Of a stretch of 31,440 nt of DNA, positions 1-15,401 are shown in pieces. Positions within the stretch are counted from its first letter, which is position 1. Every line of letters begins with the position of its first letter. The position numbers were made by a program, and so were the translations under genes. Where the stretch lies: the IMG/VR virus record IMGVR_UViG_3300026253_000003, positions 1-31,440 of that record, one strand, 5' to 3'. Source of the stretch: a virus. Under the pieces are notes generated by a model. The model ran no database searches. It worked only from the letters and a program-made list of their open reading frames with translations, and was not told the DNA's origin.

Positions 1-3000
1 AAGTCTAAGTTCTTTGGCATCTTCCAACCTATTTCCGTGGTAGTAATACCACTGGCACTTTTAATACCTTGAGCGGCTAAACTAATTTGGCCGTGATAAT
101 AACTTACATTACCCTCAACGTTTTCACGTGATAGTAAGTCTCCTTTTTTCGTTATGATATCAAGTACGCTCATTTCACCAAATGGTTGGCCGTAACGATT
201 AATAGCTGTTGTGGATCCATCTGGAACAAAAGAAATATTACTAGTTGCTTTACCAGATTTATCAAAGTTTATTATTTCTTGAGTAGTTCCATCTACATTG
301 GTCCGTGTAGACTTAACAGTTATACCGTTAACTCTATTTTCTACAATCTTAGTTCCAACTTCATAACTATCAGCTTGTTTTTCTGCAAAAATCTCTGTTG
401 TAACAGTTTTTTTATCTTTGCTAACGGTTCGAGTTTCCATAACAAACTCTTGAGCTTTACCACCTCCAATAGGTACAAGTTCTACTTTTTTAGTAACTCT
501 ACCTTCTTTGATTTGTATCACGGGAGCGTCTGTAGCGCTATCCATTCTATCCCAATATTGTTCATTGGCTTTAAATGCTAGTAATTTTCCGTTTTGAAAT
601 ACAATACTTTTAGGTCCATCACTATAATGTTCCCAGTTACTAAAAGCTTCCCCTGTTAACTTACCGTCTTTAGCTTGTGTAATACACCATGGGTTAGAGT
701 TCTTACCCCAATGAGAATCTATGATGTCTCTAACAGATTGTTGACCTTCTTTAGTATTATCAACTTTGTGCTCAGTAATACCATGTTTTTTATTGGTGGT
801 TGTGCTTGGAGAAAATTCAATTGTTTTATTTGGATCAAGAACTTTCTCTTTAACTTTACCAGCATATTTTTCTATAAGTTCGTTAGGATTTCTATAAGAG
901 AATATATCTTCCTTATGTTTTTCAGCTATTTCTACTGCCTGTTTTATTTTATAAGCATCTTCACCTAATTTAACGTTACTCGTAGCCAACCATTTAGTAG
1001 TTATTTGTTCGTATTTTCTTTTCTTGCTATCAAGAACAGCTAAACGATCAACAAAATCAAACATATTATCAACTGTCTTAGCTACTAATCCCTCTTTTAC
1101 TAAATCAGGTCTATGCTTAGTTAGAGTTTTTTCGTATTCAGTTCTATGTTTTCTAGAAAACTTTATATTATCATAGTTCTCAGGAGAACCTAATCTATCT
1201 ACGTTTTTAATATCGTTTAAAGATTTTGCTTCTTTTACCTTAGGATCAACTAATTCGTGTCCAGTTTTAGCTTGTTGAACTTTTGATTTTATATCTAACT
1301 GATCCAAGATATTCTTAACGGCCTCAACGTTCCGCATTGCATCGTCAGCAAAATACATATCATTATATCCTTCTGAAAACTTTTCAAGCATCCACATTGC
1401 TTTAGCTTCTCCAGTACTGTTGCCTAGTCCAGTGATATTCTCTAGAGGTATATCTAATCCTTGAGACTTCAAAAACTCATGTATAGGTCCAGCGGCTTCA
1501 GGTGGTCTAGCTGTTAAAATAAATTGATCTTTAGTTCCATACTTTTTAGCTCTACTTAAAGCTTTATCAAAAAATGGTCCTCTTTGTCCACCGGTAACAA
1601 CATTAAACTCTGAGAAATCAAACTCACCACCTCTATCTAATATTTCTTTCCCTTGAGTAGCAAATTGCTCAGCATCTAATCTGATTTTTTCATAACCACT
1701 AACAAAGTCATTCATCTGATCAACTAACTCTGTTGGCATTGCATCTTCTTGCTTTAACTTATCAGTCTTAATCTCCATGAACCTTTCACCAAACATTGTT
1801 TTAAAACCTGACTTATTACCTTGAACAGCTTCATGATTTTTCTCTACTATTTTATCTAATAAAGATCTTTCTTTCCTAACTCTGTTTCTTTCTAATGCTG
1901 TCTTTAATGAAGTCTCAACAAATACCATACTAACATCATATCCTTTGTCTTTAAACTCGTTAACAAGTTTTTCCATAGCTTTTATAGAACCACCAGTACC
2001 ATCAACAACTACGCCATCAGCACTACCCTTGTACTTCATCATTTTATTTTTAGCTATCTGTCTAGCTTGAGATTGTAATTTACCTAAAGTACTTCTTTGT
2101 TCTTTCGTAAACTCATTCATGTTTTCTGGTAAACCATTATTCTTTTTTAACCACTCTAACGATATATCAGAATTCACAACTTTAAATCCTTGTTTTTCTA
2201 AGTTTAATTTTTTAATAACATTACCTTTACCGCTACCGGCACCACCCGCTAAAAATACTACTTTTCTATTTGGCTTTGGCTTTCCATCAGTGTTAGGTAT
2301 TCTAGCTCTAACACCACCTTTAGTATAAGCTAAAGTATCATCAAAATCCCAAGCGCTCATACCTTTTGTTTTCTTATTACTTAGTCTACCTAGATTAGTA
2401 GCCTTAGCAACGTTGATTAAATCTTTAAGTTGATTTCTTCCTTTTAGTTTAGAGTAGTTTTTAATTCCAATGTTTTCTATAGCTCTAGTAATATTTACTT
2501 CTGAGATTTTATTTATTTTATTAACAACTCTGTTAATCTCTGCAAGTTTCATTACCTCTGGAGATTTCATTAAGTCTGCCCACTCTAAAGCGCTTCCAAT
2601 ACTATGATTAGATCTTTTTACAGAGTTAATAACTATTGTTGGTATTGCTCTATAAGATATTCTTTTAAAACCGGAATTAATCTTAACACCATTGACTGTT
2701 TTATAAATGGTATTTACAGATGGTCTAAGTGTTAATATTGCTTTTCCTGATAACATTGGAATGTTTAATTTTAATGGGTTTTTACCCATATAATGTAATC
2801 CCTTGCCCTGAATATTTATATAATAATTAGGGTAACCAGGTTTATTATTGTATATTCTACTTACATTGTCTATATTAAAGTTTTTATCTATAGCGGTTAT
2901 TCCATTTATATAACCTTCAACTACCATTTGTTCATATAATAACTCTGGAATAGGATCTGAAACATCGTTCCATTTAACACCATCTTCCATCAACCTTTCT

Positions 3001-6000
3001 CTCATAGCCTTTATTCCAGGTATAGTCTGCTGCAATAAAGCATTGATTTCCTTATGCATGAATTCACCTTTTTTAATAAGTGCTTTGCCGTTTTTTGTAT
3101 TTAACTTATTAACAGTAACGCTACCATGCTGGGCATTAGCCATCTTTACTTCTACAAAGAAATCTTTACCATGTAATTTTATATGTAGATCTGGGACGCC
3201 TCCTTCTGCAACGCTACTAGATAATACTTCAATTCCAGGAACTTTATTAGCTATATTTATTAGGGCTTGCTCGTACTGTGGTCCCCTTCCCTTTGGAACA
3301 TCTACAATTTTTCCTTTTCCAAGACCTTCTTGTAACGTTTTTCTTATGGCTTTATCTAAATTTTTATCATATAGTAGTTCTTTAGTATATAGTTTATCAA
3401 AAACAAAATCCGCTATTCGCTGATCGATATGTTTAAATTTATCTAATAGCTTTAATCCTTTTCCTTTAGATTTTAAATTATAAGTATTGTCTATTCCTTT
3501 TTCACTAATATTTTCCATTACTTCAAAGGCATCCATAAGGAATTTTTCAGGAGTTAATTTTGAATCTAAACCTTTGTCTATTTGTTTGATAGTAGATTCT
3601 ATTTCTTTCTTTATAGCATCATTTATATCTACAGATGATGTTTCTTTTAAATTTTCAACTATTTTATCTGTAATACCATAACCTCTTTCTTTTATATATA
3701 TACTCTCCAACCAAGCTCTTGATGCATTTTGATCTTTACCATAAACTTCCTCTATCATTTCTAACCCGAAAACTTCACGCCTATAGTCTATACGATCTTG
3801 TATTTCAAGTATTTTAGAGTCGTTTTTAATAATACTTTCTCTAATTTCTTGTTCTGTATAATCTTTTCCTGTTTTCCTATTCCTAACTTTACTAAAAGAC
3901 TTGGGTGATTTACCATCCGCAATAGCTAGCATCTCTGGTTCAAAGATTTTACCCATTTCCATCATTGGTTCTCTAAGACCTTGACTAGTAAACATTCTTT
4001 CAGTTAAAGAAATAACCCCCTTAAGAGTTTCACCAACACCTTCTAACCCCTCAACTGGTTTGTTGTTTCTAGTGTTTAAATTTCGAGTACCATCTTTCAT
4101 TATACCGATAGCTTCTCTAAGATTTTCTATTACCTCCACTGGCACCATTCCATTAACTGTCTTTTTGTATTGACCAAAAAAGTTTTCTTTTGATCTAACT
4201 TTTGTACCATCTATAGTTGTAACGCCAGCTATACTTCTTTTGGTGTGTGTTATGGCCTGTATTTTTCTAGGAACATTTGTTGTTTCGCCGGGAACTTGTA
4301 TACCGTTAACTTCTTTAGTTATAAACCCTTGCGGATTAACATACTCAGCAAACATTGGTATCCACTTGTTTAAACCGTTTTGTAAGGCCTTTATATCTTC
4401 TCCGTCTAAATTAGATTTCTTTTCTATCTTATTAGCTATTTTTTGTGCTAAAGCTTTATCTCCAACAAAAAGACTAATTGTTTCTGGTAGTACTAAAACA
4501 GGTAGATTTTTCATTTTTTTACCTGATACAGTTTCCATAAGTTTGTTTACATCAATACCACCTTCCTTGTTAGTAAACTTCTGTCTTATACCATCGTGTA
4601 TTTCCTTAGCTTGTTTACCTTTTTGGGTTTGAATGTCAGACATTACCTCGTGAAGCTTTGGTTTTTCGGATTCATGCAAGATACGTCTAGAGTTTGCGTC
4701 ACTCATTTTAGTCTCTATCATGTCGTAAGCACTAGGACCTTCGTAAACCAACTCCTTAACCCCGCTTTCGGCATCTATAGATTTTTCCATGTTTTTCCTA
4801 TGGAGAGTATCAGCTTTTCTGAAAACAGTTAAAACTCTTAAATCAGCAAATCCATTTATCCAACCTGATAAACCAAACTCAACATCCTTTTTATCATAAA
4901 CCTTCTCTTCAATGTTGAACCTTCTAATGTGACCACCTCTTTTTCTCTGACCATGATCCATACCACCTAGTTGTTGGTAAACTTGTTCGGCGAATTTAAT
5001 TGGATCACCCAAAAGCCCATTGAATTTTGCGTTAGCTGCGGCAGATCTTTTTATTAAATGTTTTATAACGTTGTCATGAAACTCTTTACTGCTATACACC
5101 TCTTCCCAACCTCCGTTTCTCCACTGATCTTTCGTGTACTTCTCACCAAGCCCGTTTATCGTCTTCATTTCAGGATACTTAGAGAAAGATTTAGCTAAAT
5201 CCATTTGACTTACCTCTGTAAAAGCATCCCATCCTTTAACGAACTTAATGGGACTCTCTACCATAAGATTCTTAACGTCGTACTTAGACGTGTTACCAAG
5301 TCTCTCAGATTCGCTAAAGATATCGTTTAACATGTTTTTAAGGTTGCTAGCATCTTTTTCGTTAAACACTTTAATGGTTTTCTTTCCTACGTTTGGAAAT
5401 ACTTTGTTAATGTGAGGAAGAAATACGTTTTGTATTTTTTCTGCTCTAGACAAATCTAGCGTTATTTGTTTATTCTTTAAACCCTCAACATACGTTGTTA
5501 ATATTTCCTCATAATACTTAGATTTTTGTTCGTAAGATTCTACACCTTCACGGAATGGTATTACAGTTTTACGATCAGAATACTCCCTTTCAATCATTTC
5601 ATTTTTAAGAAACTTTCTATCTTTTTCACTTAATGATTCAAGGAATTTATCTATGATGGCAACACCTTTTCTGGATATTCTTTGCTTAGTTACCTTTACA
5701 GGTATACCATATTCATTTTTTTCTGTTACTGTATAGTTTTCTTTAAAAGCATCTTTTAATATATGGTGAACTGTTTCGTGTATACCAGTACCTATAGTTT
5801 TAAACTCAGCTGCTTTAACTGGATCAACAACTATATATGACTTTCCATTTTTTGTATAATGAAACCCAGCAGTTCCTACAGCAGCTGGATCATTAGCTAT
5901 TCTTAAATAATCTTCTGTACTTTCAGCTATTTCAAATTCAGCTCCTAAACTTTCAGCTATAGCTTTTGCTATTAATAATTCTTTATTAACGGCTTCTTCA

Positions 6001-9000
6001 TATTTCTTTTTAAGCTCTGCTAATTCTTTCGTGTGCTCTAGTTTTATAGGCTCTAACTCAAGTTTTGCTAATTCTATTTTAGCACCGTTATTTGCTCCTT
6101 TATCATTTTTCAATCTTTCTAGCTTAGCTTCTGCGTCAAAATACTTTTTTGTTTTTGTCATCAGCTTTAGAGCTTCTGATCTACTAGTAATATTCCCAAA
6201 AGACTTAACATATTTTATTATCCCTTTGTAGTAATCTCTTTGACTAGTAAGAAACTCCGCTACTTCAGGACTCTTCATTTTTTTCATTAAATAATCAAAC
6301 TCAGCTTTATTCATACTGCCAAGATCGAGCATTTGTTGAGGTGTTAATTTTCCTCCAGCTTTATTAATAACATATAACTGTCTCTCGAGTTCAGCTAATC
6401 TTTTTTTATCTTTTGATATAAGTTTTTTAGCCGCTCTAATATGTAAACGACCATTCATATCGCTTGCCGCTTTTTCAATTTCCGCAAGTTCTTTTTCTCT
6501 AGCTTTAGCGTCTTTTTCTGTCTTTTTTGATTTAAGCCATTTTTTAGTTGCTTCAACTTTCTTTTTGTTTGCAGCAGCGTCTATAACGTCTGCATCAACG
6601 TTTTCTTTTATACTTAGTTTTTTAGCAGCCTTACTAGTATTTAAGTTTCTTATATTAAAGTTATCTATATCTTTTGCTAAAGCCTCACCAACCTTACCAC
6701 CCGGCGTTATATAACCTAACATAAACATACCAACGAAATCACTAGCCATAGTTTTAACTAAACTAGCTTTAGTTTCATTATTTTGATCTTTTATGTATTT
6801 TCTATAATCAACTTCTGATTCAAAACCGTTTTCAGCATACTTTGTAAAATCGTTATCTTGAAATAACAAATCTATAATCTCACTGTCTCCACTAATAGCT
6901 TTTGCTATTTCCATTGAACCGACTCCAGAAACAGCGCCCATACCTCTTTCAAAAGCTTTTTCTAATACACTATATCTACTTACCCTGCTCATAAACATAG
7001 AACCACGTTTACTTTGCATTAATCTTCCTATAATTTTTTTACCAACAACATTACCAACACCAAGACCAAAAGCAAACTCCCAGTTTAATTCGTCTGTCTT
7101 TGGATCATACACCATTGGGTCCATGTTAAATAGTGAGCCACCAACTTGATCAGCTATAGATAAATATACTAACTCTTCAACACCACCAAGAGTAATATCT
7201 GTCATAAACTTACCTATCTTCGTTCTACCAATAGGAAGTTTCTTCATGTAATTTCCAATAGCTGTAAACTTCTTACTAACCTGTCCACCAAGAGTTCTAG
7301 CTGTTCTTGCTCTTCCTCCCCAAGCAGCACCTCGTCCTGCCATAGCAAAAGCTCCAAGAGGTATCCGTTTAGTTATATATAACGATGCTATAAGCGGGGC
7401 GATATGCTTCACAAAATCTCTACCACCCTCAGCAATATCTCTTATATCAACTTCATCACCAAACATTTCAATACCACCTGGTAACATCCAATCACCACCT
7501 TCTCTAGTAACTCTTTTCCAATCATCATTCATTACTACTCCAATCTCTTCCATGTACTCACCAAATGCTTCTGCTTGTTCGTCGGCTGTATAGCCTATTA
7601 CCTTATCTGGAGCAAATAGAAATTCTCCAATATTTTTTTGAATTTTACCTGAAAAATTGAAAACATCTGCTAGCCCAACATCTGTCGAACCTTCCTCTGC
7701 TAACTTTGAAAGATCTTGATTTAATTCTAAAGCTCTACCTGTAATTAAATATTTCTTTAATGCTTCGTTGTAATGTTGAGTAACCTCATCATCTCCAGAC
7801 GCCTCTTGAAGACCACCGATTAACGAGTTGTTATCTGAAGCGCTTATTATTGCATTGTTAAAATCATCAGAACTCCAATTAACAAGACCCAATAAACCCA
7901 CTTGTGATTCGCCATGTGTCTCTCTATACATATTAACAGCCGCAACTAAATCATGGCGATTTTGCGTTTGCTGTATTTGTAGTGTGGCTGGCTTGTGTCT
8001 TTCAGAAAGTATAATAGCTCTCTCCTCATCCTCTTTACTTACCTTTGAGACGTTATTAGGATCAGCATTAGCTTTATCCTCATCGCTAAGCTCACTCCAA
8101 TTAATATATTTACCATCTTTATTATATAGAGTATAAAAACCGTTATCCTCATTTAATTGAGCTGCCTCATCACCTCTCCCAGCTTGAATTAAATCAAACG
8201 TGTCTTTGTCTTTACCCGCGAGCTGAGCTACGTTAGCATATTCATTAGATTGAATTTCTAAACCTTCTCCAAACTCGTTATCGGTGTCAAATTGTTCTTT
8301 GTATGAGTTACTTTGCTTAGCTTTTATATAATTTAGAATTCCACTTCTATCAACATTGCTACTAAAAAATCTATCTTGAAAAACTTTCTTTTGTCTTTCG
8401 TTTTCAGGAGTAGCGTAATCAGTGTCTGCTCCAAAAATCCCAGCAATAAAATCCATTGGTACTGTTAGATACATTGTCTCAGCATCCTCCATGTATGGTG
8501 CGTATAAGTACTCCATCATATCCTCGTCATCAAACATAGGAAGATCATTAGGATTTAAATATGTTTTGTCATCTCTGTCAAGGTTCAAATCTTCAGGTTT
8601 GAACATGATAGCATTCCCATGCTCATCAAATTGGGATTTTAAAGTACCATCATCATTAATTTGCGTAATTGCAAGAATTTCATCTCTATCTGACGTGCCA
8701 TATTGATTTATAAACTTCTGTTGAGTTCCAAGTTCTTCATGTTTCTTATCTAGCTCAGCTGTATTTTTTTCTAATTTACTTTGTTTTTTCTCTTTGTAAA
8801 GACCTACTATATCAAAAATATCAACAGACTTCCCGTACTTACCACTAAATTCCTCCTGCTCTAATTCTTGTTTTGTTACGGTTGTTGGTTTTAATATCTC
8901 AGGCTTTTCTTCTTTGTCTATTTCTTTGTTAAAAGCTTCTACTTGGTTTGTTGGCCCAGTTTTAGCGGCAGCAGCTAATTCTTCTTTTTTGCTATACACT

Positions 9001-9167
9001 TCCGGCGCTTTATTCTCCCTTATCTCATTAGCTTTTCGTTTTCTTATTTTCTCGAGTTCTTCTTTTGTATAATCTCCAGAGTCTATAAAAGGTTGCATAG
9101 CCACATCTAATTCTGATGCAGCTACGGTATTTCTAGCTTCTCTTATTCCAAGTGAATTATCGTTCAT
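1..9167 (-). CDS. Giant multi-enzyme virion (polyvalent/ejection-type) protein, C-terminus outside window
   Basis: An uninterrupted reading frame starts at ATG 9167, directly after the TAG of the upstream gene, and is still open at base 1: at least 3055 codons. I translated it by hand; motifs throughout fall exactly in frame with the 9167 start. Residues 1-580 are acidic with no recognised domain. About 584-612, 697-713 and 800-815 are Gly/Ala-rich and hydrophobic, possibly membrane-active. About 840-1070 is Lys/Glu-rich coiled coil. HETVH at 1130-1134 is a zincin motif. A PD-(D/E)XK nuclease motif is P1992-D1993 with E2006-V-K2008. HAD phosphatase motif I (DFDDT, 2274-2278) is followed by a P-loop kinase (GGAGSGKG 2308-2315, D2334), then HAD motif II (LTARP, T2552), K2589 and acidic pair D2608-D2609. 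A conserved-looking block with PWCIT lies near 2826. Known for such proteins: polyvalent proteins travel in the virion and act in the new host. That role here is inference from size, domains and position after internal-protein genes. Confidence 0.9.
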   Translation of the reverse strand, partial: MNDNSLGIREARNTVAASELDVAMQPFIDSGDYTKEELEKIRKRKANEIRENKAPEVYSKKEELAAAAKTGPTNQVEAFNKEIDKEEKPEILKPTTVTKQELEQEEFSGKYGKSVDIFDIVGLYKEKKQSKLEKNTAELDKKHEELGTQQKFINQYGTSDRDEILAITQINDDGTLKSQFDEHGNAIMFKPEDLNLDRDDKTYLNPNDLPMFDDEDMMEYLYAPYMEDAETMYLTVPMDFIAGIFGADTDYATPENERQKKVFQDRFFSSNVDRSGILNYIKAKQSNSYKEQFDTDNEFGEGLEIQSNEYANVAQLAGKDKDTFDLIQAGRGDEAAQLNEDNGFYTLYNKDGKYINWSELSDEDKANADPNNVSKVSKEDEERAIILSERHKPATLQIQQTQNRHDLVAAVNMYRETHGESQVGLLGLVNWSSDDFNNAIISASDNNSLIGGLQEASGDDEVTQHYNEALKKYLITGRALELNQDLSKLAEEGSTDVGLADVFNFSGKIQKNIGEFLFAPDKVIGYTADEQAEAFGEYMEEIGVVMNDDWKRVTREGGDWMLPGGIEMFGDEVDIRDIAEGGRDFVKHIAPLIASLYITKRIPLGAFAMAGRGAAWGGRARTARTLGGQVSKKFTAIGNYMKKLPIGRTKIGKFMTDITLGGVEELVYLSIADQVGGSLFNMDPMVYDPKTDELNWEFAFGLGVGNVVGKKIIGRLMQSKRGSMFMSRVSRYSVLEKAFERGMGAVSGVGSMEIAKAISGDSEIIDLLFQDNDFTKYAENGFESEVDYRKYIKDQNNETKASLVKTMASDFVGMFMLGYITPGGKVGEALAKDIDNFNIRNLNTSKAAKKLSIKENVDADVIDAAANKKKVEATKKWLKSKKTEKDAKAREKELAEIEKAASDMNGRLHIRAAKKLISKDKKRLAELERQLYVINKAGGKLTPQQMLDLGSMNKAEFDYLMKKMKSPEVAEFLTSQRDYYKGIIKYVKSFGNITSRSEALKLMTKTKKYFDAEAKLERLKNDKGANNGAKIELAKLELEPIKLEHTKELAELKKKYEEAVNKELLIAKAIAESLGAEFEIAESTEDYLRIANDPAAVGTAGFHYTKNGKSYIVVDPVKAAEFKTIGTGIHETVHHILKDAFKENYTVTEKNEYGIPVKVTKQRISRKGVAIIDKFLESLSEKDRKFLKNEMIEREYSDRKTVIPFREGVESYEQKSKYYEEILTTYVEGLKNKQITLDLSRAEKIQNVFLPHINKVFPNVGKKTIKVFNEKDASNLKNMLNDIFSESERLGNTSKYDVKNLMVESPIKFVKGWDAFTEVSQMDLAKSFSKYPEMKTINGLGEKYTKDQWRNGGWEEVYSSKEFHDNVIKHLIKRSAAANAKFNGLLGDPIKFAEQVYQQLGGMDHGQRKRGGHIRRFNIEEKVYDKKDVEFGLSGWINGFADLRVLTVFRKADTLHRKNMEKSIDAESGVKELVYEGPSAYDMIETKMSDANSRRILHESEKPKLHEVMSDIQTQKGKQAKEIHDGIRQKFTNKEGGIDVNKLMETVSGKKMKNLPVLVLPETISLFVGDKALAQKIANKIEKKSNLDGEDIKALQNGLNKWIPMFAEYVNPQGFITKEVNGIQVPGETTNVPRKIQAITHTKRSIAGVTTIDGTKVRSKENFFGQYKKTVNGMVPVEVIENLREAIGIMKDGTRNLNTRNNKPVEGLEGVGETLKGVISLTERMFTSQGLREPMMEMGKIFEPEMLAIADGKSPKSFSKVRNRKTGKDYTEQEIRESIIKNDSKILEIQDRIDYRREVFGLEMIEEVYGKDQNASRAWLESIYIKERGYGITDKIVENLKETSSVDINDAIKKEIESTIKQIDKGLDSKLTPEKFLMDAFEVMENISEKGIDNTYNLKSKGKGLKLLDKFKHIDQRIADFVFDKLYTKELLYDKNLDKAIRKTLQEGLGKGKIVDVPKGRGPQYEQALINIANKVPGIEVLSSSVAEGGVPDLHIKLHGKDFFVEVKMANAQHGSVTVNKLNTKNGKALIKKGEFMHKEINALLQQTIPGIKAMRERLMEDGVKWNDVSDPIPELLYEQMVVEGYINGITAIDKNFNIDNVSRIYNNKPGYPNYYINIQGKGLHYMGKNPLKLNIPMLSGKAILTLRPSVNTIYKTVNGVKINSGFKRISYRAIPTIVINSVKRSNHSIGSALEWADLMKSPEVMKLAEINRVVNKINKISEVNITRAIENIGIKNYSKLKGRNQLKDLINVAKATNLGRLSNKKTKGMSAWDFDDTLAYTKGGVRARIPNTDGKPKPNRKVVFLAGGAGSGKGNVIKKLNLEKQGFKVVNSDISLEWLKKNNGLPENMNEFTKEQRSTLGKLQSQARQIAKNKMMKYKGSADGVVVDGTGGSIKAMEKLVNEFKDKGYDVSMVFVETSLKTALERNRVRKERSLLDKIVEKNHEAVQGNKSGFKTMFGERFMEIKTDKLKQEDAMPTELVDQMNDFVSGYEKIRLDAEQFATQGKEILDRGGEFDFSEFNVVTGGQRGPFFDKALSRAKKYGTKDQFILTARPPEAAGPIHEFLKSQGLDIPLENITGLGNSTGEAKAMWMLEKFSEGYNDMYFADDAMRNVEAVKNILDQLDIKSKVQQAKTGHELVDPKVKEAKSLNDIKNVDRLGSPENYDNIKFSRKHRTEYEKTLTKHRPDLVKEGLVAKTVDNMFDFVDRLAVLDSKKRKYEQITTKWLATSNVKLGEDAYKIKQAVEIAEKHKEDIFSYRNPNELIEKYAGKVKEKVLDPNKTIEFSPSTTTNKKHGITEHKVDNTKEGQQSVRDIIDSHWGKNSNPWCITQAKDGKLTGEAFSNWEHYSDGPKSIVFQNGKLLAFKANEQYWDRMDSATDAPVIQIKEGRVTKKVELVPIGGGKAQEFVMETRTVSKDKKTVTTEIFAEKQADSYEVGTKIVENRVNGITVKSTRTNVDGTTQEIINFDKSGKATSNISFVPDGSTTAINRYGQPFGEMSVLDIITKKGDLLSRENVEGNVSYYHGQISLAAQGIKSASGITTTEIGWKMPKNLD

Positions 9168-10024: not shown

Positions 10025-10876
10025 TTAATTTTTAGCTATCATATCGACGTCGATCATATCATAGTACACTCCGTAATATCCGTTACCCATAGTTGTTACA
10101 GCGTCTTCTCTACCAATGTTTAATAAATCTTGTGCCATTGCACCAGACCAAAGTTGATCTTCACCTTTATAATTAAATGTGTATATTGGTATTCCAGATT
10201 TCGAAACTCCAGTTTTATTTATATTTTCTTTTAATCTAATATCTGATCCAATAGCTGCTTTCATTCCTGTTGTTACTAAACCACTCACAAATGCATCCGA
10301 TTGCGCCTTGGCGTTATCTATAGCTTGGTCAGCCCCAGCTTTTCTACCCATTGCCCAATCTAATTGTTGATTCATTTTATCTTGGTCAAACTTCTCCACC
10401 ATTCTAGCGCCCTCTCTTTCCATCATGTCTCTTTTCTGTTCTCCTTCTGCGCTTTGTTGTTGTAATCTACCAGCTTCACCTCTTGCTCTAGATTGATTAG
10501 CCTGTTCTTGAGCTCCAATAGAAAGAGATGATTGTTGTGCTTGTTTAACACCTTGATTAGCTAGTACTTGCGCTAGTCCAGCCACACCACTACCTCCAGC
10601 AGCTCCTTGCATACCAGCCATCACATTCGCCATAGCTTGTTGAGATTGTTCTTTTGCAAACTCTGCTTGTTTTAAGTTTACTGTTTGATCTTCATAAACG
10701 TTTTCTAAGTTAGCATAAGGATTTGTAACCCCAGCATAAGGGTTTTTCATTTTAGAATCTTCCCATGCATCCATTTGGTTACCCATGTCTTCATTGGCTG
10801 CTCTTTGTTCTCTTCTTCTTGCCGCTCCCCCAAACATGGCATTTAAAAACTTATTTGGTGATTTTGAATTTCCCAT
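10025..10876 (-). CDS. Ala/Gln-rich internal virion-like protein with C-terminal S74 self-cleaving chaperone domain
   Basis: 283 residues. Residues 1-205 are Ala/Gln/Met/Gly-rich, mostly helical in character (AQQSSLSIGAQEQANQSR, EQSQQAMANVMAGMQGAAGG), as in short-tailed phage ejection proteins. The last 73 residues are an intramolecular chaperone of the peptidase S74 type. SDIRLKENI begins at S211, and S211 with K216 matches the Ser-Lys dyad of the endosialidase chaperone family, which cleaves just before the Ser. Further family landmarks are YTFNYK, GAMAQDLL and a closing YDMIDVDMI. S74 domains usually fold trimeric tail spikes and fibres, so a trimeric product losing an 8-kDa tail is expected. 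The domain is shorter than the roughly 110-140 residues usual for spikes. ATG 10876 is preceded by an A-rich leader without a Shine-Dalgarno sequence. Confidence 0.85.
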   Translation of the reverse strand: MGNSKSPNKFLNAMFGGAARRREQRAANEDMGNQMDAWEDSKMKNPYAGVTNPYANLENVYEDQTVNLKQAEFAKEQSQQAMANVMAGMQGAAGGSGVAGLAQVLANQGVKQAQQSSLSIGAQEQANQSRARGEAGRLQQQSAEGEQKRDMMEREGARMVEKFDQDKMNQQLDWAMGRKAGADQAIDNAKAQSDAFVSGLVTTGMKAAIGSDIRLKENINKTGVSKSGIPIYTFNYKGEDQLWSGAMAQDLLNIGREDAVTTMGNGYYGVYYDMIDVDMIAKN

Positions 10877-12872: not shown

Positions 12873-15401
12873 TTAATTTTTTATTTTATTCTTAATGATA
12901 TAGTCGTATTTTAAATCAATATTTAGTATTGTTTCCGCTTCATTCATAATGTAATTGTTAAAATATACTTCTGCTACAATAAGTCCGGGCACATCATTCG
13001 TTGTAAACTCAACACCAACTCCTTGCGGTAAATTTCCTCCTTCCCATTGATTAGACTGTGCGTTTAAAGTAGCTCCAGCAATACTCCATAATTCAATACT
13101 ACTAATATCATTCCCTTGAATATCCATATCAACGCCTAATATACTGATTTTTTGCATTCCAGTATAACTACCTGAAGGAATAAAAACAGCTCCAAACAAT
13201 GTTGAGACAGTAGGTATGGATGAGGGGTACATAGTTATGGAAGCAGGTCCACCATTCCACGATCCGGGAATTGGAATATCACCTATGTTTGCAGGGGGTC
13301 GCTTGAACCAATGACTATCTGGAATCAAATCGGCATCCGTATCTATAGCCGCGAGTAAATAAAGCTTTGCGTAAGTGCAAGTTCCATCATCAATAGTTGC
13401 AAGTGGATCAAAATTTAACGCTAAAGGATTCATACACCCAAATACCGGAGCCGGAAGTACACATGAGCCATCGTCGAAAGTTGCTAAAGGATCAAAATTA
13501 ATTGCGAGAGGATCCATACATCCTAAAACCGCGCCAGAAACTATTGTGTTTACTATTCCTATTCCTTGGAAGTTAAAAGCCGCAGTATCAACTTGATAAG
13601 ATAGTCCTTTAATATAATTAAACCATTTACCTTCTTTTTCTATAAATTCATTTAACGACCCTTCTTGCATGTCTGTGTGTATGCTTCCCACATACCAGCC
13701 TTTTTTGCTAGTTAAATTGTAGTAGTTATTATCGTCATGACGTATATCTACTTTAGATTGACTACCCTCATAGTTCAAAGTATTGAAGTTCTTAACAACC
13801 TCGGGCTGCATGTTAAATATTGGAGTAATAGACGATTCAAAATCGTCTCCATAAAAATTATTTCTATTAACAGGAGTTATTCCATCCGCTTCGAACTCTT
13901 GATGGTGCTTGTATAGTTTACCAAGTCTAGTTGTGTAATATTGACCAACAACACTTAAGGCAAAGTCTGGAGTAAAAGATTTAAAACTTGACCAACCTTT
14001 CACATCTTCTCCAAATGATAAAGTTTTTCCTCCACCAATTATTTCTAACGTTATGTTATCTATTGTACCTTTAAAACCAGAAGATCCACTAACAATACCA
14101 AATTTACTTACGTTATTAATATTAGATGTATTTAATATAGCTTGACTAATTATACCATTAAAGGTATGAAGTCCATTTGAATCTATAGGTCCAAATACAA
14201 ATCCTTTACCTTCGTCATTATATAAATAACTTGTAATTTCCCCGGCGCTATAATCGCTAACATTAAAAGTAATTCTAAATTGATCGCCTCCAGATATAAC
14301 CGATCCGTCTACTACTTGGTTTAACTCTACGTGAGGATTTGCTGTATCAAAAACTACACTACCTTGTTGAATCGTAGGGTTACCTCCAACAGGACTCCAG
14401 TAAAGTTCCAATGCATTACCAAGGTCTAGTAGGTTCCAATTAGTAACAGTTCCACCGCTTTGGTAAACCTCGTTTAAAACAATATTATCTATTCTTGCAA
14501 CGCCACCTGGTTCCATTAGTAAAATAAAATGAGTTGGTGCATTTCCTTGTTGGGACCACTCTGCAGTACCTATTCCATTGTCTTCTGTTATAGGAACTCT
14601 AGTGACTTGATTACCTTGAAAGTTTGCAACTGTATTAACAAATAATTTATCATTATAAGAAGGCAATACAGGTGGACCACTCCAATTAGTATTATCAACG
14701 TCATTATTAATATCCATTGTTACGACATAATTATGACCTGGTAATAAGGTTGCCCCTGTTTGGTAAAGTATTGCACTCATGTCAAACACAACTTCTAGCC
14801 CCGATGGAAAGTATATTTCGTCAGGATATGTTGTAAAATCAAGAGCTCCTTGTCCGGGAATAAACCCTGGTAAATCTATAGGGTTGAAAAACGACCAATT
14901 AGGCAGTGTCTCTGCGACAGCTACTTGATATCCTAATACTCGTTTAAAAGAAAAATTATCAAAAGCTATACTAGCAGCTGTTGGTGTGCCATTATATTTT
15001 ATAATCATTCTATTAGCTAAAGTTGGATCTGTTGTTCCTATTGGGTATCCGAACTTATCACTAGAAACTTCTATGCTGGAATATTTTTCAGCTACCATAG
15101 TACTACTTAGGGTGGTATTAAATTCTATTCCCGATGCAACACTTAGTATCCCGTCCCAAGGTCCGTATATAGTTATTGTTAAGTCAACATCATTTCCACT
15201 ACCAACGTCATACCAGAATTCTAATTGATATTCAGTCTCATCAATTAATGGCCAATTCCATGAATGTTGATATACTATATATTCGTTATTACCATTTGGG
15301 TCCCATTCAATATATCCATCCGACCCAGTATTAGTGCCAATGTTACCATTATTTATCACAAAAGTCGCTCCGCTTGCGTTATATAAATTCCAATTCGCCA
15401 T
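12873..15401 (-). CDS. Tail/adhesin protein: carbohydrate-binding-like modules, stabilisation-protein C-terminal region, GCMDP repeats
   Basis: 842 residues. Residues 1-155, 160-310 and 320-455 look like three beta-sandwich, carbohydrate-binding-like modules, each opening with an NW[NS] strand (NWNLYN, NWSFFN, NWNLLD) and closing with an 'IDNI.L' or 'FDNFSF' strand. From about 458 comes TLSFGEDVKGWSSFKSF, then KLYKHH, NFYGDDFESS, FNTLNYEGSQSKVD and GSLNEFIEKEGKWFNYIKG. From memory, this block is the C-terminal part of gp10-like stabilisation proteins in related marine phages, where it continues the propeller. Two 21-residue GCMDP repeats follow (about 627-675), then a beta-rich C-terminus ending in a basic tail. 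It starts 12 nt after the stop of the 1894-aa gene. Role inferred: outer tail protein contacting the host surface. Confidence 0.8.
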   Translation of the reverse strand: MANWNLYNASGATFVINNGNIGTNTGSDGYIEWDPNGNNEYIVYQHSWNWPLIDETEYQLEFWYDVGSGNDVDLTITIYGPWDGILSVASGIEFNTTLSSTMVAEKYSSIEVSSDKFGYPIGTTDPTLANRMIIKYNGTPTAASIAFDNFSFKRVLGYQVAVAETLPNWSFFNPIDLPGFIPGQGALDFTTYPDEIYFPSGLEVVFDMSAILYQTGATLLPGHNYVVTMDINNDVDNTNWSGPPVLPSYNDKLFVNTVANFQGNQVTRVPITEDNGIGTAEWSQQGNAPTHFILLMEPGGVARIDNIVLNEVYQSGGTVTNWNLLDLGNALELYWSPVGGNPTIQQGSVVFDTANPHVELNQVVDGSVISGGDQFRITFNVSDYSAGEITSYLYNDEGKGFVFGPIDSNGLHTFNGIISQAILNTSNINNVSKFGIVSGSSGFKGTIDNITLEIIGGGKTLSFGEDVKGWSSFKSFTPDFALSVVGQYYTTRLGKLYKHHQEFEADGITPVNRNNFYGDDFESSITPIFNMQPEVVKNFNTLNYEGSQSKVDIRHDDNNYYNLTSKKGWYVGSIHTDMQEGSLNEFIEKEGKWFNYIKGLSYQVDTAAFNFQGIGIVNTIVSGAVLGCMDPLAINFDPLATFDDGSCVLPAPVFGCMNPLALNFDPLATIDDGTCTYAKLYLLAAIDTDADLIPDSHWFKRPPANIGDIPIPGSWNGGPASITMYPSSIPTVSTLFGAVFIPSGSYTGMQKISILGVDMDIQGNDISSIELWSIAGATLNAQSNQWEGGNLPQGVGVEFTTNDVPGLIVAEVYFNNYIMNEAETILNIDLKYDYIIKNKIKN
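13377..13523 (-). repeat. Two GCMDP/DDGSC 21-residue repeats (Bacteroidetes-type surface repeat)
   Basis: Copies at 13461-13523 (GCMDPLAINFDPLA...DDGSC) and 13377-13439 (GCMNPLALNFDPLA...DDGTC) are separated by a 7-residue spacer. Each has a Cys at position 2 and at its end, plus a clustered DDG acidic turn, consistent with a disulphide-closed, possibly calcium-binding loop. Repeats of this kind are frequent near the C-termini of surface and secreted proteins of marine Bacteroidetes, which is one of the better host clues in the window. Confidence 0.85.

Follow-up and report, generated by a model that had tools for sequence, protein, structure and literature searches.

In T4 and bacterial Pnkp, the kinase and the phosphatase are joined end to end, with the kinase before the phosphatase. 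Mammalian PNKP has the reverse order, with the phosphatase first and the kinase second. In jumbo phages, PKN-HAD and Swiss-army-knife HAD phosphatases have been tied to RNA repair, and PKN-HAD is fused to an N-terminal kinase (PMC7824862). The polyvalent proteins of phages and conjugative elements are a further relevant class, and in the searched text of their description they include zeta-like kinases (PMC5512222).

In the present study, we analysed a virus record of 31,440 bases (the whole stretch is called the window), in which a complete P-loop kinase of about 200 residues follows motif I of a single HAD phosphatase and splits it; the phosphatase, residues 2269-2633 of a giant protein, has motifs I to IV intact. 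As in T4 Pnkp and bacterial Pnkp1 (of the Pnkp1/Rnl/Hen1 complex), a P-loop kinase and a HAD phosphatase, both with intact catalytic residues, share one chain, and by Z score Pnkp is the best solved structure for both halves. The window protein differs from them in that the kinase is enclosed by the HAD, with motif I before it and motif II after it, and in that no membership of their sequence family could be detected; no Pfam PNK3P match was found. The kinase-first order is also lacking, since the window protein is nested and its tandem relatives are phosphatase-first. This is the order of mammalian PNKP, which is not nested and whose FHA domain was not seen here. In PKN-HAD the kinase is N-terminal rather than nested (PMC7824862), and no kinase nested in a HAD was found in the open-access literature searched. 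Domain fusions usually join ends, but here a whole enzyme sits in the active-site loop of another. A kinase-phosphatase fusion and a polyvalent-type protein are of known kinds; the apparently exchangeable flap site was unexpected.

The giant protein and its nested region

The giant ORF is the last gene in the window and is preceded in gene order by the terminase, portal, capsid, and tail genes (Table 1). Terminases of Flavobacterium and Cellulophaga podovirus-type phages, and that of an uncultured podovirus, share 45-65% identity with the terminase of the window; thus, the host is probably a flavobacterium. No cultured phage with the same giant protein was found in the phage collection searched. 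In the nearest relative, judged by terminase, the corresponding place is taken by an unrelated protein of 3860 amino acids with two HEFGH motifs. Elsewhere in the window, a Peptidase_S74-like C-terminus and a pair of adjacent repeats in a tail-region protein were observed (Table 1).

Several unrelated enzyme features occur in this very large protein of the virion gene block: the HAD, the kinase, an HExxH motif at 1130, and a PD-(D/E)xK-like motif at 1990, the last two as motifs only. The giant protein fits the polyvalent class, which it resembles in being a giant multi-domain phage protein encoded near virion genes, with a metallopeptidase motif and with ART-like and zeta-like kinase modules in the family. 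HAD domains and domain insertion, both present in the window protein, are absent from the searched text on polyvalent proteins (PMC5512222). Its gene position and the polyvalent-protein literature suggest that the protein is probably delivered with the virion.

Table 1. Features of the window and of related loci (positions in nucleotides of the window unless noted; residues of the giant protein)
Feature	Locus	Position	Strand	Residues	Remarks
Giant ORF	window	3..9167	(-)	3055+	Stop-free to contig end (3055 codons)
HAD part 1	window	2295..2363	(-)	2269-2291	Motif I strand, WDFDDT (D2274, D2276, T2278), and first flap-hairpin strand; invariant in relatives
Insert: PNK/zeta-type P-loop kinase and short linkers	window	1686..2294	(-)	about 2292-2494; kinase proper 2298-2492	GGAGSGKG (K2314), VNSD (D2334), VVVDGTGG (D2389); missing from uninterrupted relatives; Pfam AAA_33/Zeta_toxin; fold match
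HAD part 2	window	1269..1685	(-)	2495-2633	Second flap strand; motif II LTAR (T2552), motif III GEAKAMW (K2589), motif IV FADD (D2608, D2609)
HETVHH, zincin-type metallopeptidase motif	window	5763-5780	(-)	1130-1135	No Pfam match
GGVPDLHIKLHGKDFFVEVK	window	3140-3205	(-)	about 1989-2009	Resembles PD-(D/E)xK nuclease core (VRR-Nuc-like); no Pfam match
Peptidase_S74-like intramolecular chaperone (SDIRLKENI)	window	10025-10876	(-)		Protein C-terminus; slightly below Pfam cut-off
Two adjacent repeats, GCM(D/N)PLA(I/L)NFDPLAT(F/I)DDG(S/T)C	window	about 13375-13600	(-)		In ORF 12873-15401 (tail-region protein)
Tandem HAD-kinase	L064, L065, L323				HAD first, kinase second
ART-like insert (tentative), type 1	L248, L249, L272				At flap tip
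ART-like insert (tentative), type 2	L258				At flap tip
43-aa helical insert	L392, L310, L275, L331, L361				At flap tip
Similar stretches KYVVDMTTKEGRRFVENYE and PDWIVDISTKKGRELIQNLE	L064, L065			about 1806-2050	Flank the tandem kinase
Second partial copy of post-motif-IV segment	L004, L040, L208-L229			L004 2476-2524; L040 2532-2579 (protein coordinates)	About 450-650 residues downstream of HAD
Standalone kinase relative, then NT5C-type HAD gene	L083 (Melnitz)	5977-7276 of locus			
Standalone kinase relative, then cytidylyltransferase-like gene	L082 (HTVC008M)	5953-8402 of locus			

The initial annotation had named the HAD and kinase motifs and placed the kinase in the cap position of the HAD. 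We found every motif at its residue in one open minus-strand frame. The split at the cap position (C1-cap, flap) was confirmed by uninterrupted relatives, in which the DFDDT segment and the LTARP/ADD segments are naturally joined. We searched IMG/VR with the 399-residue region and obtained 231 relatives. In L002-L062, motif I and LTAR are separated by 277-283 residues, with the P-loop at +39; in L064-L081, the distance is 77-80 residues and no kinase lies between. Sampled uninterrupted relatives are 46-66% identical to the window protein. Because they align across the junction, the two pieces form one HAD domain. By this alignment, the junction follows the proline at the end of the first flap strand ('..RARIP' before N in the window, '..LYTTP' before E in L066) and precedes 'RLDAEQFA' or 'KLNAEQFA', respectively; the insertion point is the tip of the beta-hairpin (flap) directly after motif I. 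An artefact of a single contig was ruled out by 75 distinct nested loci.

The annotation had also proposed structure prediction. In the nested-region model (pLDDT 87.9, pTM 0.76), flap strands 25-30 and 231-236 bracket the kinase. The insertion point suggests that the inserted domain would form a cap-like cover above the HAD active site.

In the HAD half, D13, D15, T17, T291, K328, D347, and D348 (region numbering, equal to giant numbering minus 2261) are invariant among 62 aligned relatives with and without the kinase, and a strict pattern recovered all four motifs intact in 240 of 255 cores. The motifs that define the HAD superfamily (DxDxT/V, S/T, K, and an acidic pair) occur in order in one Rossmann-like core. 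No Pfam HAD match was found in the interrupted protein, where the HAD was seen via its motifs, uninterrupted relatives, and fold, and no Pfam HAD model scored above cut-off among the uninterrupted relatives (sub-threshold HAD, E 0.12; DUF2608, best E 4.5e-6); recognition above cut-off is not a strict requirement of the superfamily. A direct sequence search of the PDB gave no significant HAD match. The model of an uninterrupted HAD (pLDDT 87.1; hairpin strands 19-23 and 29-33) matched the T4 Pnkp phosphatase domain with Z 12.6 (126 aligned, 2.4 A), T4 Pnkp with 11.9, and bacterial Pnkp1 with 11.8. T4 Pnkp and bacterial Pnkp1 fill the first six places by Z, with unrelated chains next at 11.3 and 10.9; this lead of Pnkp is modest, because the Foldseek E-value order places other HADs ahead (led by phosphoserine phosphatase and MDP-1, with T4 Pnkp only 20th).

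The kinase half matched Pfam AAA_33 (E 1.4e-10) and Zeta_toxin (E 1.5e-9; 38 bits, cut-off 22.3), with nothing else confident in the giant protein, and, for the kinase part only, PHROG 505 polynucleotide kinase (E 1.9e-7). The Pnkp family model TIGR04075 was not matched (13.7 bits against a cut-off of 750). By fold, the best solved structure is the Clostridium thermocellum Pnkp kinase 4gp7 (Z 17.9, 165 of 171 residues, 2.8 A), followed by epsilon/zeta structures with zeta toxin (Z 14.7) and adenylate kinases (Z 14). The Pnkp-like character that the annotation had seen in both halves was therefore upheld at the level of solved structures, with the Pnkp kinase and the Pnkp phosphatase as the respective best matches. 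All 81 kinases, three of which lie outside these giant proteins (HTVC008M, Melnitz, and Atu_ph07), share K53, D73, D128, and T130, and all 80 that extend far enough share R166, R170, and R173. The 'GKG' of Walker A was considered as a sign of a dead kinase and rejected; G occupies this position in 30 of the 81 kinases and in adenylate kinases. Both the kinase and the C-terminal part of the HAD are under purifying selection (dN 0.07-0.19 against dS 0.57-2.2; dN/dS about 0.1-0.25). From the conserved residues and this selection, we infer that both enzymes are active.

Occupants of the flap site

Among 248 distinct HADs, we counted 161 with an empty flap, 75 with a nested kinase (the window and 74 relatives), three in tandem with a kinase, three with type 1 and one with type 2 of an ADP-ribosyltransferase (ART)-like insert, and five with a small helical insert; the census comprises the distinct HAD cores among all loci fetched, and the choice of queries biases its numbers. 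When motif IV was the sole key of a pattern scan, 69 of 80 loci were empty. The HAD clearly works without the kinase.

The type 1 insert contains YYHGT, GLGKHYTKS, and an acidic motif at the C-terminus, and had no Pfam match to ART-PolyVal. The type 2 insert had a sub-threshold match to ART-PolyVal (E 0.075, 14.2 bits, cut-off 31.2) over positions 18-127 of 140. The ART naming of the inserts is tentative, because it is based on motifs and this one sub-threshold full-length match; that they are distinct domains occupying one flap site is not in doubt. The 43-residue helical piece reads MLDVxARRxFKKEFENLPSFKQNF..., and L308 has it besides the five census carriers. In L064 and L065, two similar stretches flank the tandem kinase, resembling two copies of a small unit with the kinase in between. 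Some loci have a second partial copy of the post-motif-IV segment downstream of the HAD (Table 1).

Filled and empty sites occur in near relatives: L248 (filled) and L252/L294 (empty) are close in DNA on both flanks of the insert, and likewise L258 and L255, and L261 and L259. Between L248 and L249, the type 1 inserts are identical at 407 of 429 DNA positions (94.9%), against 287 of 389 (73.8%) in the HAD part after the insert (Fisher p 8e-18); the insert has a dS of 0.24, whereas dS in the HAD has reached saturation. Since the inserts are about 95% identical inside HADs about 74% identical, the type 1 insert must have moved by itself.

In the case of the kinase, well-supported branches of the HAD tree force at least four changes of state. 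Several insertions, or one ancient insertion with repeated losses, would fit this distribution equally. The kinase is more conserved than the HAD in pairs such as the window and L010 (84% against 66% identity) and L065 and L323 (95% against 77%), and these comparisons point to kinase exchange. The kinase and HAD trees also reject each other, but so do trees of the two halves of either domain by itself; because general recombination gives the same signal, we set this conflict aside as proof of kinase mobility.

Because other enzymes or nothing occupy this loop in relatives, it resembles a socket for exchanged enzyme modules. From these sequences, we prefer to view the HAD as a host domain whose insertion site has been used repeatedly, and the kinase as one of several alternative modules. 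In a stronger form, which we consider possible though somewhat short of an even prospect, the flap tip would be a dedicated exchange site at which whole effector enzymes (the kinase, at least two ART types, and others) are swapped between phages and the HAD retains an intact catalytic site, with the insert as a replaceable cap. If so, the phosphatase would be gated or redirected by whichever enzyme is inserted. Exchangeable inserts suggest a route by which phages diversify injected effector proteins. As natural empty and filled sites exist among close relatives, the evolution and cost of domain insertion are directly testable, and in these natural chimeras the insert and the host can be assayed apart or together.

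Possible functions

As a whole, we favour, with somewhat better than even confidence, a Pnkp-phosphatase-like HAD in a giant multi-domain, probably virion-delivered phage protein, whose flap tip is a recurrent insertion site. The hairpin tip after motif I tolerates whole domains, here a Pnkp/zeta-type P-loop kinase and in relatives nothing, an ART-like domain, or a small helical piece. Early in infection, the pair would act on the phosphate ends of nucleic acids or nucleotides, the kinase phosphorylating 5' ends and the HAD dephosphorylating 3' ends; where no kinase is present, the HAD would do its job alone. We regard a phosphate-end enzyme pair as most likely, with moderate confidence, given the independent resemblance of each half to Pnkp; the fold comparisons make a PNKP-like pair plausible, and end healing is the leading predicted reading.

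The initial annotation had read the two halves as one nested kinase-phosphatase, plausibly an end-healing enzyme for breaks in host tRNA or DNA or a nucleotide-modifying enzyme. A dedicated bifunctional enzyme would phosphorylate 5'-OH ends and remove 3'-phosphates, readying broken tRNA or DNA for ligation. The Pnkp structures of both halves favour this, as do the tandem relatives, which repeat the pair in the other order, and Methylophilales phage Melnitz, in which a close kinase relative precedes a HAD nucleotidase gene. Of 13 contigs with the kinase, 11 encode an ATP-dependent DNA ligase, as do 6 of 13 contigs without it, but this association is not significant (p 0.10), and ligase absence is weak evidence because the contigs are incomplete. 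No RtcB was found, and a search for T4 Rnl1, which lacked a positive control, gave no match. An RNA ligase partner was rejected: the PF09414 matches overlap the DNA ligase ORFs. PADLOC returned nothing of weight. Most relatives have the HAD without the kinase, three have the kinase after the HAD, and ART-like domains take its place in others. Because the HAD is usually kinase-free and the loop can hold other enzymes, the claim of one dedicated bifunctional enzyme is not supported as it was made, and we regard a dedicated enzyme as doubtful, though a serious contender.

Two further readings take the kinase away from nucleic-acid ends. It may phosphorylate UDP-N-acetylglucosamine or another small host metabolite, with the HAD as an unrelated phosphatase for small molecules that the same injected protein carries. 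The window kinase resembles zeta toxin and UNAG kinase in its Zeta_toxin score above cut-off and in its match to epsilon/zeta structures; one viral relative is annotated as UDP-N-acetylglucosamine kinase, and zeta-like kinases are among the polyvalent modules in the searched text (PMC5512222). By fold, however, zeta structures lie 3 Z units below the Pnkp kinase, and we consider this quite unlikely. Substrates of both enzymes might otherwise be free nucleosides, nucleotides, or NAD-derived compounds, in counter-defence or salvage. Adenylate-kinase-like folds and the NAD-using ART domains at the same site would agree with this, but adenylate kinases rank below Pnkp; we regard it as unlikely. 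Standalone kinase relatives adjoin an NT5C-type nucleotidase gene in Melnitz and a cytidylyltransferase-like gene in HTVC008M (Table 1), which makes nucleotide metabolism a possible role, although this link is seen in distant phages only.
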